36,406 nucleotides of DNA from positions 1-36,406 of IMG/VR virus record IMGVR_UViG_3300043410_000250. The stretch is one strand, 5' to 3'. Of the stretch, positions 3,583 to 25,407 are shown one piece after another. Positions within the stretch are counted from its first letter, which is position 1, and the number at the start of each line of letters is the position of its first letter. Source of the stretch: a virus. The translations under genes and the position numbers were made by a program. The notes below the pieces were generated by a model. That model ran no database searches. It was given only the letters and a program-made list of their open reading frames with translations, and had not been told where the DNA came from.

Positions 3583-3908
3583 GCCCTGAAAAAGCCGCTG
3601 AATCCATCCGATTGAAAGCCCCAAGGTTTGGACAGGCAAAGGGGCGCAGAACTTACCTAGAGGAGTTTAGAAGGGTCCAGAAGGCCATTCTGATGAAGGA
3701 TGCGCTGACCAAAGGGATTGAGGCAGCAAACGCCCAAGAACGGGAAGCCCTTTGTGATCCTGATTACAAAAAACTCTTAGAGGACATCAGGGACGCCGTA
3801 GAAATTGAGGAAACGCTGAAATGGGAACTGGAGAGCCACCGTCTGGATATTGAGATATTCCGAACCAGACAGGCCAGTGAGCGTTTGCAGATCAGGTCGC
3901 ACGAATGA
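3579..3908 (+). CDS. Hypothetical helical phage protein (109 aa)
   Basis: This is a charged, helix-rich protein. A basic N-terminal part (APRFGQAKGRRTYLEEFRR) is followed by a long amphipathic helix with coiled-coil character (residues 55-109, rich in Glu, Arg and Leu). It overlaps the HNH-like gene downstream by ATGA. In other phages such proteins often precede a small nuclease gene, which fits here, but the role is unknown. Confidence 0.75.
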   Translation: MSPEKAAESIRLKAPRFGQAKGRRTYLEEFRRVQKAILMKDALTKGIEAANAQEREALCDPDYKKLLEDIRDAVEIEETLKWELESHRLDIEIFRTRQASERLQIRSHE

Positions 3909-4267
3909 AGTTCCCCAAAACCCAATACGTCAGGAGCAAAAAGTTGCTTAAACTGGTTGCAGGGCTAGATTGCCAGCATTGCGGGTCAAGCCAGCAAGTC
4001 CAGGCGGCACACAGCAATTGGGGCGGCGGGAAAGGGCGTGGCATTAAAGCCAGCGACAACGAAATAGCCGCGCTTTGCCAGACTTGCCATTTCCAGATAG
4101 ATCAAGGCAAAGAGTTGTCCAAAGAGGAGCGAAAAAACAGGTGGGAACAGGCCCACCTGAAAACTCTCCAGAGTTTGGCAACTGCGGGTTTATGGCCCGA
4201 GGAGATTCCGTTAACGGATCAGTATTTACGCATATTCGGCAGCGGGGCCGATGCTTGCGATTCGTGA
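3905..4267 (+). CDS. HNH-like small nuclease (120 aa)
   Basis: Last gene of the rightward unit. A CxxC knuckle (CQHC, residues 23-26), the AAHSNWGGGKGRG segment (residues 35-47) and a second knuckle CQTCHFQID (residues 58-66) form a beta-beta-metal finger in which the AH and C-x-x-C-H residues would bind metal. This layout is typical of the small HNH-type nucleases near the end of lambdoid ninB-rusA regions, which process recombination intermediates or cut DNA. The exact substrate is not determinable. Its last 49 bases overlap the convergent minus-strand gene 4219-4437. Confidence 0.75.
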   Translation: MKFPKTQYVRSKKLLKLVAGLDCQHCGSSQQVQAAHSNWGGGKGRGIKASDNEIAALCQTCHFQIDQGKELSKEERKNRWEQAHLKTLQSLATAGLWPEEIPLTDQYLRIFGSGADACDS

Positions 4268-9284: not shown

Positions 9285-10732
9285 TATTTAATCACTCCCA
9301 TAGAACGGGCCATGTTCCGAGAACGCAACAAATCTTGTTGTTCAGACTTGCTCAAAGAATTCCACAGTTCTTTGGATTCTTTTTGCGTCATTTCTTGGAA
9401 CAATCGAGGGTCTGAAATCTGGTTGAATCGTGTCAATTCTTCTTGGTATCTCATGCCATTGTCTTTGAACTGATTGAGATAACCAGCCCGAGCAATCTTC
9501 ATGTTTTCAATACCAGACAATTGATTAATGACGCGATTAATACCTTCTTTGGTCATGTGAACATTGGGGTTAGCAAGTTCAGCAATGCTTCTAGCCGCAT
9601 CGGTATTGCCACCAGCCAACTGGAGCAATTTGGTATTTTTCATCAACTCATCAGTAGATGAACTTTCCAAAACATTCAAAGGAATGCCAATGGATTGAGC
9701 GAGACTAGCAACAAATTGCTTCTTCTCTCCCAATGCGCCCGTGTAAGCCTCGGGAACCAATTTCTTGATGTTCTGGAAAATTGCAATGCGTCCTGGCGCT
9801 TCTCTTGCCTCTGCAACAGTTTTTGGCAAATCTTCTGAAATGATCTTTGCACCAGCTTCCAATGCCCCTGCCTGAGTCGGAGAAAGGGCTGTAACTATTG
9901 GTTGTTTTGCACGTTGAGACATTGGCCCAAGAACAGTTCGTTCCCCAGTAGGGGAAATAACTTCTTGCGTTGGCGGCAGTTCAACATCTGCCAAAGGCGT
10001 TCCACCAACTTCAATTTTCGGAGCCATGCCAGCAACGCTAGGCGTGGTAACAGTCGGAACAATTTGTGCGCCAGTGCTGAGTGTTCCGGCTTTGGGGCCA
10101 AATGCAGATTCTTGTTCAGCAGGAGACAACAATTGTTGAGCGCCAGCAATAGCCACCTTTGGCAATCCTGGGCCGCTTTCAACGTATTGCCATGTTCTTT
10201 TGTATGCGTTGACCAAATCCTGCAAATCTTTATTGTCTGGATTTTCACTAGCCAGCAATTGCATTTCAGCAAGATATGCGTTCTTGTCCTGAACCCCTGC
10301 GCGACCCAAAACACTCAATCGAGAACCAATCATGGTTCGTTGTTCTTGAGTCAGTTTTTGTCTTGCATTGATTGCTGTGGTTTGAGCCTGTCCAAGATCG
10401 GTATATTTTTTGATGTAGTCATTGCCAGTTAATGGCGCAATTGAAGGAACTGCGGCGTTGATCTTGTCTATATCAATTCGACCATTGGTTTGAAAATTCG
10501 CAGGGTCAGCAAAAAACCGCTGCATATTTTTTCGCTCAAGGTCTTGTTGTTCTGTAACGCTTAGAGCAATCTGACCAGTTCTAGCCTCTTGTTGAGCTTT
10601 TTGAACCGCCAAAGGATTCATTTGCTCGGCTTGCTGATATGCCTGAACGCCACGCGCTAAATTCACCATGTCGCCCATAGACATGGCTTGTGGGCCTTTG
10701 ACCATTGCTCCCAAAGGAGTGAAATCAGCCAT
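9284..10732 (-). CDS. Internal virion/ejection protein (482 aa)
   Basis: By order (between the gp7-like and gp16-like genes) this corresponds to P22 gp20, a pilot protein ejected before DNA. It is Gln/Ala-rich and helical at the N-terminus (NLARGVQAYQQAEQMNPLAV), low-complexity in the middle (Pro/Thr/Val-rich, about residues 220-290), and helical at the C-terminus, with no signal peptide or enzyme motif. Sequence match to the P22 protein itself is not evident, so the assignment rests on synteny and composition. AAGGA precedes ATG 10732. Confidence 0.72.
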   Translation of the reverse strand: MADFTPLGAMVKGPQAMSMGDMVNLARGVQAYQQAEQMNPLAVQKAQQEARTGQIALSVTEQQDLERKNMQRFFADPANFQTNGRIDIDKINAAVPSIAPLTGNDYIKKYTDLGQAQTTAINARQKLTQEQRTMIGSRLSVLGRAGVQDKNAYLAEMQLLASENPDNKDLQDLVNAYKRTWQYVESGPGLPKVAIAGAQQLLSPAEQESAFGPKAGTLSTGAQIVPTVTTPSVAGMAPKIEVGGTPLADVELPPTQEVISPTGERTVLGPMSQRAKQPIVTALSPTQAGALEAGAKIISEDLPKTVAEAREAPGRIAIFQNIKKLVPEAYTGALGEKKQFVASLAQSIGIPLNVLESSSTDELMKNTKLLQLAGGNTDAARSIAELANPNVHMTKEGINRVINQLSGIENMKIARAGYLNQFKDNGMRYQEELTRFNQISDPRLFQEMTQKESKELWNSLSKSEQQDLLRSRNMARSMGVIK

Positions 10733-23915: not shown

Positions 23916-25407
23916 TTAGGCTGCAACGCGACAGGCGAGTTCCGGGTAGAGCGGAGCCCAACCATAGAGCACGTCCAGACGGGTCGGGATCGAGTCGTTG
24001 TTGATGGTGTATTGGCGAACCACACGCATCGACAGACCGATTTCCTTGTCCGAGGCGCGACCAGCAAAGTGGACGCCTTCCGGCAGTTCAAGATCAGCCA
24101 CTGCCAGCGTGAAAGCATTGCGGTGCATGATGATGTTCTGCGGAGACACAGTGCCCGTCTTGTTAAAGAAGTTCACGGTAGCCGTAGAGGAGGTGGACGG
24201 GATCGTCACGTTCTGGAACTGACCAGCGGTGATAACAGCGGGGCTGACGGTCACGTTGAAGGTCGCGCCAGTGCCGGAGGCAGCAGACTTGACCACAAAG
24301 TTACGCAGCTTGTTGCTACCGTAGGCTTGACGGTTCTGGGGGTTAACAGCGTACACGCCATCAATCGTAATCACATCGCCAGCGTTCAGAGAAACTGCGC
24401 CGGTAGAGGTGATGCTGATCGTGGAGGACGATGCCCAACCAGAGGTCAGGAAGCCCGTGGCGGCGGTCGTGGAGCACACAGCCGTACCAGCGAACGAACC
24501 GAACGTCTGGGAAACCACGTTCTGATCCATCTTCCAGTTCATGCCAGCGGAGTCACGGCCCATCAGACCTTTACGGTACTGCTCGCCAATGGCTTCCTGG
24601 GGCACGAACAGACCTTTCAGGCTGTCCACGATGGTGGCGCTGGTGAACGGTTCGACGATACACGAACGGCGACCATCACGGGGAGCACCTTCGGCGTCCA
24701 GATACGCACCTGCGGTCAGGTAGGTAATCAGGCCGGTCGGGGGCGTTCCAGCAGTACCAACGATGTTGGCGGTTTGCAGCGTAGCCATAGACAGACCGTC
24801 ACGGTCAATCTTGTTGGCGATAGCGGCAACAGCGGGCTTCAGCACTCGATCGCTGAACATATCCAGCGACAGCGCCAAGTCTTGCGTAGTGAATTGTGTC
24901 ATTCTGTTACTTCAGCCTCTCGGCTTACTGACCTTTTCAGGCGGGTTAGGCGCTTCGGCCTATCCTCTCGGGCTTCTTTTCGGTTATACCCAAGTTCAGA
25001 CTATCGCATCCCATTTCAGGGCCATTCCACTTAGTCGTTCAGGCTGCACAGAGTTTCCTCTTGCTTGCCCCCTGTCGCCCTCCGCAGGGCTTCCAAGTCA
25101 ATCAGGAACGGTTTTGCCAACGTCCTTAGTGGACGTATGTGGACATACCTTTATCCACATGGAACTGGGTGCTCAGGGTAACAGGCACGCTCGTCTCGTT
25201 GAAATCTTCAACGTTCAGGGCGGGGCCGGTCGTACCGATGAAGCGGCCCGGACGGCGAACGTTGACCGTGTTACCGATCTTCGCGCCGACCACGGCAAAC
25301 TGGTCATCATAGTTACGGTCCACTTCCGAGGTGAAGGTCAACTCGTTTTCCAAGACCATCAACGCTTCGTTGGTGATCTTGCTAATAGTTAGCAATTGGT
25401 TAGACAT
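23916..25407 (-). CDS. Major coat protein, P22 gp5-type, gene split by an intron
   Basis: It builds the capsid shell. Two coding parts are seen. Exon 1 (25407-25153) encodes 85 residues from MSNQLLTISKITNEALMVLE to TQFHVD, with the P22-type N-terminal arm and RRPGRFIGTTGPALNVEDFN. Exon 2 (24899-23916) encodes 327 residues beginning TQFTTQDLALSLDMFSDRVL, followed by KPAVAAIANKID, GLMGRDSAGMNWKMDQNV and an inserted-domain-like Ser/Thr/Gly-rich region. The joined product is 412 residues, near the 430 of P22 gp5, and reads HVD-TQFTTQDLALSLD across the join, as in P22-family coat proteins. Without splicing, exon 1 runs into the intron and stops after eight more codons, which would be lethal. AAGGAAATG lies before ATG 25407. 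Confidence 0.92.
24900..25152 (-). ncRNA. Group I self-splicing intron in the coat gene (253 nt, no ORF)
   Basis: Sense is the minus strand. P1: exon end ATGTGGAT (25160-25153) pairs with the guide GTCCACAT (25144-25137), the last pair being the obligatory u.G at the 5' splice site. P2: ACGTCC/GGACGT (25136-25131 with 25125-25120). P3: CCGTTCC (25111-25105) with GGAATGG (25028-25022). P4: TTGaCTTG (25101-25094) with CAAGCAA (25067-25061). P5: GCCCT/AGGGC (25090-25086 with 25081-25077). P6: GAG-GAAA-CTC (25060-25051). P7: GACTA (25036-25032) with TAGTC (25003-24999). P8: CCC/GGG next to P7. P9-type AGCC-GAGA-GGCT at 24925-24914. The intron ends in G (24900), the omega G. It contains no endonuclease frame. 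Removal restores the coat frame exactly. Confidence 0.92.

Follow-up and report, generated by a model that had tools for sequence, protein, structure and literature searches.

Introns in phage capsid genes and small degenerate group I introns are already known. The major capsid gene of mycobacteriophage LittleE carries an intron, most likely of group I, for which reverse transcription PCR and N-terminal sequencing showed splicing, and the same source cites a capsid-gene intron in Tuc2009 (PMC3706429, available part). For Bastillevirinae and Twort orf142, 45 intervening sequences are described in 37 phage genes, with splicing in eight of nine tested genes and exon skipping observed (PMC11878797, available part). 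Small degenerate group I introns of fungal ribosomal RNA (rRNA) measure 56-81 nucleotides (nt), and those of the PaSSU type in Phialophora 63-75 nt (PMC3160393, available part). Engineered trans-excision ribozymes cut out segments via P1, P9.0 and P10 (PMC4094466, available part). Here we describe an insert of 253 nt in the gene for a P22-type coat protein, on a stretch of DNA of 36,406 nt from a freshwater phage (IMG/VR record IMGVR_UViG_3300043410_000250, positions 1 to 36,406; hereafter the window). We put the probability at about 95% that this insert is a compact group I intron without an open reading frame (ORF), which would be excised to give the mRNA of a coat protein of 412 amino acids (aa).

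The insert resembles the LittleE intron in lying in a capsid gene, with U before it and G at its end (PMC3706429, available part). The LittleE intron differs in its length of 819 base pairs (bp), its endonuclease-like ORF and its HK97-type capsid (same source and part), whereas the insert described here is far shorter, ORF-less, lies in a P22-type coat gene and has counterparts at many sites in the clade. An earlier note on this DNA, made from the sequence alone, had called a very short, ORF-less intron in the coat gene of a P22-like podovirus unusual. This holds only in part, given the demonstrated LittleE intron, the one cited for Tuc2009 and the frequency of such introns in the clade.

The coat gene is on the minus strand of the window, as two exons split by the insert, which contains stop codons. 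Exon 1 (25153..25407, minus strand) encodes 85 aa (MSNQ...HVD), the intron occupies 24900..25152 (minus strand, with U just before it and G as its last base), and exon 2 (23916..24899, minus strand) begins TQFTTQD and runs to the stop codon. The joined exons encode 412 aa plus stop. The earlier note had given these intron borders, and they are exact to the base, as are the break after HVD and the resumption at TQFTTQD. Searching viral contigs for matches to the exon 2 protein gave at least 600, the best 80 of which served as relatives. The frame is unbroken exactly at the insert site in 77 of the 78 that cover the junction; one (L024) is interrupted there, and two others of the 80 (L059 and L067) start past it. 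The nearest of these relatives, L001, lacks the intron and is 98.8% identical to the joined frame of the window. L001 matches PF11651 with 120 bits over residues 1-409, which bears out the proposed P22-type coat protein.

The case for a group I intron is carried by these intron-less alleles and by covariation. We aligned 17 introns from 13 coat positions, the window being one of them, and scored the window's own P3, P4, P5, P6/P6a, P7, P8, P9, P9.1, P9.2 and P9.3. Pairing is kept in 94.8% of 806 cells across 49 pairs, and in 33 of these pairs both partners change. Covariation scores 0.521, and no more than 0.133 when the partners are slid; none of the measures was reached by any of 500 shuffles (0/500). 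A structure read from one aligned row favours that structure over slid versions; the two-sided changes are independent of this. P3, P5, P6, P8, P9, P9.1, P9.2 and P9.3 lie at their expected positions and are backed by covariation. P7 varies nowhere and P4 varies in one pair, on one side; these two rest on sequence because they are fully or nearly invariant. A family core model gives the window 119.8 bits, the window being among its 17 training sequences. The same model does not recognise the T4 intron (8.2 bits, E 0.92) and thus fits this intron family only.

All elements are read on the minus strand. P1 joins the exon side ATGTGGAT (25153..25160), whose last U pairs with G, to the internal guide sequence GTCCACAT (25137..25144). 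Then come the P2 hairpin (25120..25136, ACGTCC/GGACGT), read both in the sequence and in the fold, the 5' strand of P3 (25105..25111, CCGTTCC), P4-P5 (25071..25097, CTTG/CAGG and GCCC/GGGC), P6/P6a with a GAAA loop (25042..25069), the 5' strand of P7 (25032..25036, GACTA), the 3' strand of P3 (25022..25028, GGAATGG), P8 (25010..25021, CCC/GGG), the 3' strand of P7 (24999..25003, TAGTC) and P9 (24967..24994, CTTGGG/CCCGAG). The terminal G is base 24900, with the junction set by the 77 intron-less relatives. P1 has 8 bp with U.G at the border, and an equal run occurs in 68 of 5000 shuffles of the exon letters. Over 63 distinct introns the P1 run averages 6.3, compared with 3.5 with shuffled exons; all 63 were selected for a preceding U and a terminal G, and many are close variants. 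Folding of the window stretch gives z = -3.2. The helices named in the earlier note, including the GNRA-looped P6, the P7 pair and the P1 with its U.G at the exon border, can all be recognised in this structure.

Some observations weigh against this reading. P10 in the window is imperfect (A-U, C-A, A-U, C-G, with the second position mismatched), one P9.1 pair is A-A, and covariation neither backs nor opposes the invariant P7. The Rfam model RF00028 has no match in the window and matches only one of six related loci (L178, 21.2 bits, with a gathering cut-off of 50). The earlier note had said that no hit to group I models would speak against an intron, and formally this is the result; RF00028 is also silent on the T4 nrdB intron, and because of this we do not count its silence against an intron. 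Rfam's top-ranking model here, PVT1_7 (E 3.8), matches by chance, and a weak RcThunderbird match over 60 bases was likewise set aside (the locus, L085, has no core-model match).

The insert might instead be unspliced, with the coat made as two proteins or the gene broken in this contig. The one public record with this intron, MW202674 (Manatee Spring), seems to favour this: there the site is occupied by a 268-nt insert, and the annotation gives two separate P22 coat coding sequences (CDS) and a small ORF within the insert between them. Also, the final three bases of the window insert are ATG, in frame with exon 2 (ORF 23916-24902). Set against these points are the occupation of the same site in 12 loci (9 distinct sequences, with the window counted and one contig counted twice), the covarying core, the precise junctions at 13 positions and the unbroken frame in all but one of the junction-covering relatives. 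We therefore consider an unspliced insert very improbable.

We predict that the transcribed window intron folds into P1-P9 and that P1, with its U.G pair, holds the 5' site. Guanosine bound in P7 would cut this site, the freed U-OH would attack past the terminal G, and the exons would be joined. Sequence comparison shows the exact empty site, the covarying core, P1, the terminal G and the intact coat family; the two reactions, and an efficiency sufficient for an abundant coat protein, are what known group I chemistry would lead one to expect. Expression of the coat would then be under splicing control. The ORF list of the window shows no ORF of at least 60 aa inside the 253-nt insert, and a homing endonuclease is not encoded there. 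Two plus-strand ORFs spanning the intron have no Pfam match. A gene for a freestanding HNH endonuclease (3905..4267, plus strand; phrog_131, E 1.6e-24) is a candidate mobiliser. No link was seen between it and the coat intron, and mobilisation of the ORF-less intron by this route is possible, though unproven.

The window intron belongs to a larger family. We aligned 165 loci with a coat match using a purpose-built spliced protein-to-DNA aligner, which gives a small bonus for U/G borders. No inserts were identified in 83 of the 165; the intron-bearing share is no measure of prevalence because the loci came partly from intron searches. Ribozyme-sized introns of 215-281 nt occur at residues 23, 39, 48, 52, 86, 109, 205, 352, 361, 381, 384 and 389 of the P22-type coat, and at residue 391 of a distant coat (L199), giving 12 positions in the P22-type coat and one in the distant coat. 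The maximum per coat gene is four, found in L268 (residues 23, 52, 352 and 381), which also has a mini-intron of the kind described below. Short inserts at contig ends (L212, L227, L270), like those in the two distant coats (L086, L199), were taken as alignment noise and not counted; L086 showed nothing else.

The family is not confined to the coat gene. The core pattern matches at least 120 stretches; among the matches listed, 35 contain this coat and 85 do not. Twenty flanking frames from 19 of the 85 comprise four of the head protein phrog_9953, five of ribonucleotide reductase, four of tape measure, one of portal, one of a family of unknown function and five without a match. That these frames are split genes was deduced from position, and spliced alignment confirms it for the head protein only; ribonucleotide reductase, tape-measure and portal genes count as hosts of the family by position. 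In phrog_9953, a second head protein, family introns lie at query residues 58, 66 and 151 and near the C-terminus (L090, L095, L099, L113 and L137). Roseobacter phage CRP-118 (L084:2982-3383) contains an unannotated family intron (84.5 bits) between two ribonucleotide reductase CDS, which are probably one split gene. Strong core-model matches were found in 11 of 26 genome_contigs loci (two are windows of one contig). Family cores occur in genome_contigs entries assigned to Pseudomonadota (L280), Lachnospiraceae (L283), Velamenicoccus (L288) and Parachlamydiaceae (L291). The phrog_9953 head gene of L197 (reverse complement, from about base 10151) is interrupted by a group I-like intron of another kind, whose core sequence differs; a 14-nt "mini-intron" aligned within it is an aligner artefact. 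Short inserts in the divergent ribonucleotide reductase, tape-measure and portal alignments were also treated as noise and not counted.

The window holds only an ordinary member of this family. Many of its relatives have, in addition, a much shorter insert (a mini) at codon 40 (FAVV|), identified in 53 loci on 52 contigs (L024 and L149 are the same contig). The minis are 32, 33, 34, 40 or 41 nt long, with a stop codon at or near the start. Their lengths leave all remainders modulo 3, and therefore no single fixed frameshift would carry translation through all of them. Scanning with a pattern returned 47 contigs, 46 of them with the coat insert, from 41 metagenome identifiers (the match in L230 is due to chance). 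Six more mini contigs (L167, L248, L259, L261, L264 and L268) came from scans blind to the mini sequence. A cut with U preceding and G terminal is possible at the mini borders; the border slides by one base, and the U/G cut was picked by the aligner bonus.

Pairing was analysed in 22 distinct variants, leaving out contigs that end at most 34 nt past the insert. P1 is formed by the exon GCNGTGRT and the insert GYCTCNG; seven of its eight positions are paired, the site itself has U.G, and the one mismatch, U-U, is constant. Compensation is evident: exons with GCT, GCA or GCG go with A, T or C in the guide, and in L268 GAT goes with GTC. The pair at exon position -6 forms in 22/22 variants, compared with 57% when exons are swapped; taken over all of P1, true and swapped exons differ little (7.0 vs 6.5 of 8) because most positions are invariant. 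P10 joins the first four bases of the next exon to the four bases preceding the guide and is paired in 22/22. Its fourth pair occurs as U.G, U-A, A-U, G-C and C-G, and forms in 48% when exons are swapped among variants. A further helix, X, pairs six bases of the insert with exon bases 19-24 past the insert end (131/132 cells paired; 5.95 vs 5.57 of 6 when swapped, the insert side being chosen as the best match, likewise in the control). The observed values for the fourth P10 pair, the -6 pair and helix X were reached by 0 of 5000 permutations; these ignore relatedness, but among 10 loci that were compared, 25-90% of the synonymous sites in the flanking exons differ. Unconstrained folding gives mean probabilities of 0.64 for P1 and 0.72 for X, with low values in L117, L167 and L219. 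No P7 was seen by eye in the minis, and their length is too short for a ribozyme.

An 11-nt insert (CTATAAACCTG) with U before it and G last lies at codon 36 of L151 (5700-6220) and L270 (first 1.5 kb, minus strand), a short distance upstream of the group I intron that these loci have at codon 48. It is perhaps another mini-intron, with a guide that was not recognised; two loci are too few to judge. Among the coat loci aligned, no other mini-introns were identified outside codon 40.

The minis are tied to one particular intron. In every sufficiently long contig the mini lies 34 nt upstream of a full intron at codon 52. Of 152 loci covering residues 20-60, 47 have the mini and the codon-52 intron, eight have the intron alone (L127, L158, L245, L254, L255, L260, L265 and L267, in which it is of a distinct type that starts TAAG) and 97 have neither; among those that reach far enough, none has the mini alone. 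Six further minis are cut by the contig end, five of these after P1 of the codon-52 intron. We also mapped both traits on a coat tree (the gene downstream of codon 110, 137 rows, a quick method, with L086, L199 and L024 left out). At least 18 state changes are required for the mini and at least 19 for the intron. Among 17 independent pairs contrasting in the intron, an average of 15.7 also contrast in the mini, in the same direction, and none in the opposite one. These joint changes fit a dependence of the mini on the intron, and fit co-conversion across the intervening 34 nt just as well. Purifying selection on the coat frame is strong (the ratio of nonsynonymous to synonymous substitution rates is 0.012-0.111 in 45 pairs from 10 loci chosen from 32, with synonymous sites near saturation), the 32 joined mini-bearing frames contain no stops (an outcome that the aligner favours), and no second coat copy was identified in 10 mini-bearing records plus L151, some of them fragments. 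Given this selection and the lack of a second copy, the mini must be removed or skipped.

We favour, with some reserve, the view that the minis are natural guide-only introns, probably excised by the core of the group I intron 34 nt downstream. The mini P1 would dock in the core of the codon-52 intron, and guanosine would cut after the U; P10 would hold the next exon, the terminal G of the mini would enter P7, and the exons would be joined. The codon-52 intron would then splice itself, one ribozyme serving two introns. The mini would have to leave before the codon-52 intron because the core leaves with its own intron. The pairings and borders are observed, and from them we infer each reaction step as well as the borrowing of the neighbouring core.

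Other ways of dealing with the mini have to be weighed against excision by the neighbour. Short length, hairpins and a stop codon at or near the start would suit translational bypassing as in T4 gene 60. The take-off codon would, however, be GTA, and the codon preceding the resumed GGN is TGA in 22/22 variants, though according to a review several mitochondrial cases of bypassing lack a perfect match. Bypassing predicts neither the U...G borders nor a P10 that covaries with the exon (22/22 vs 48%), and we regard it as quite unlikely. A somewhat better prospect, still unlikely, is that the mini is an autonomous degenerate intron like PaSSU of Phialophora, with no need of its neighbour. It has the same three pairings as PaSSU (a P1 containing G.U, P10, and a helix that joins the middle of the intron to the 3' exon), and a 67-nt PaSSU intron splices in vitro (PMC3160393, available part). 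Set against this are a length of 32-41 nt rather than 56-81 nt, no room seen for P7, a terminal G instead of U, and the absence of any mini without the downstream full intron in loci where the contig reaches.

The mini and the codon-52 intron, being 34 nt apart, might also be linked merely by co-conversion in homing, with no functional dependence. This overlaps with the explanations above, which state how the insert is removed. It predicts that both traits change together on the coat tree, as they do, and it accommodates the eight loci with the codon-52 intron and no mini. Yet an unremoved mini would ruin a coat frame that is under purifying selection and, in the 10 mini-bearing records searched (some of them fragments), has no second copy; removal or skipping is therefore needed, and the closest candidate for it is the core of the neighbouring intron. 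We give linkage by co-conversion a limited chance, above that of the other two alternatives, and keep excision by the neighbour's core as the preferred reading.

Judged by our searches of open-access literature, two things are new. One is that a single phage coat gene can hold as many as four introns of one compact family; the other is the proposed natural guide-only introns of 32-41 nt, tied to a ribozyme next to them. The searches, from which subscription journals were mostly missing, turned up no natural group I mini-intron from phages or bacteria, and a fungal precedent exists. Small ribozymes come and go in the shell-protein gene of near relatives; therefore splicing must be efficient, and the introns need a route of spreading without an endonuclease of their own. 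If our reading of the minis is correct, they would show an intron that has lost its catalytic core and survives on that of a neighbour. Such a loss of the core, with reliance on the core of another, has often been invoked to explain how spliceosomal introns arose.

Compared with known systems, the Bastillevirinae introns lie in four other gene families, and no ribozyme-less mini-introns are encountered in the available part of their description (PMC11878797). The PaSSU introns come closest. They too lack most of the core and have the three pairings named above, which are present across the 22 mini variants; they differ in their proposed P7, terminal U and location in a fungal rRNA gene, and outside helpers are only suggested for them (PMC3160393, available part). 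The minis show no P7, no terminal U and a length below 56-81 nt. They work like PaSSU-type introns and are not classed as members, and given this close parallel they are not without precedent. Spliceozymes and trans-excision ribozymes offer the parallel for the core, which in both removes a segment outside itself through contacts in P1, P9.0 and P10 or P9.2 (PMC4094466, PMC6155759, available parts). Those are laboratory designs acting in trans, whereas the phage case would be natural and within the same RNA. If this is true, the mini and its neighbour would be nature's equivalent of the engineered spliceozyme and would mark a move towards a general machine for splicing.
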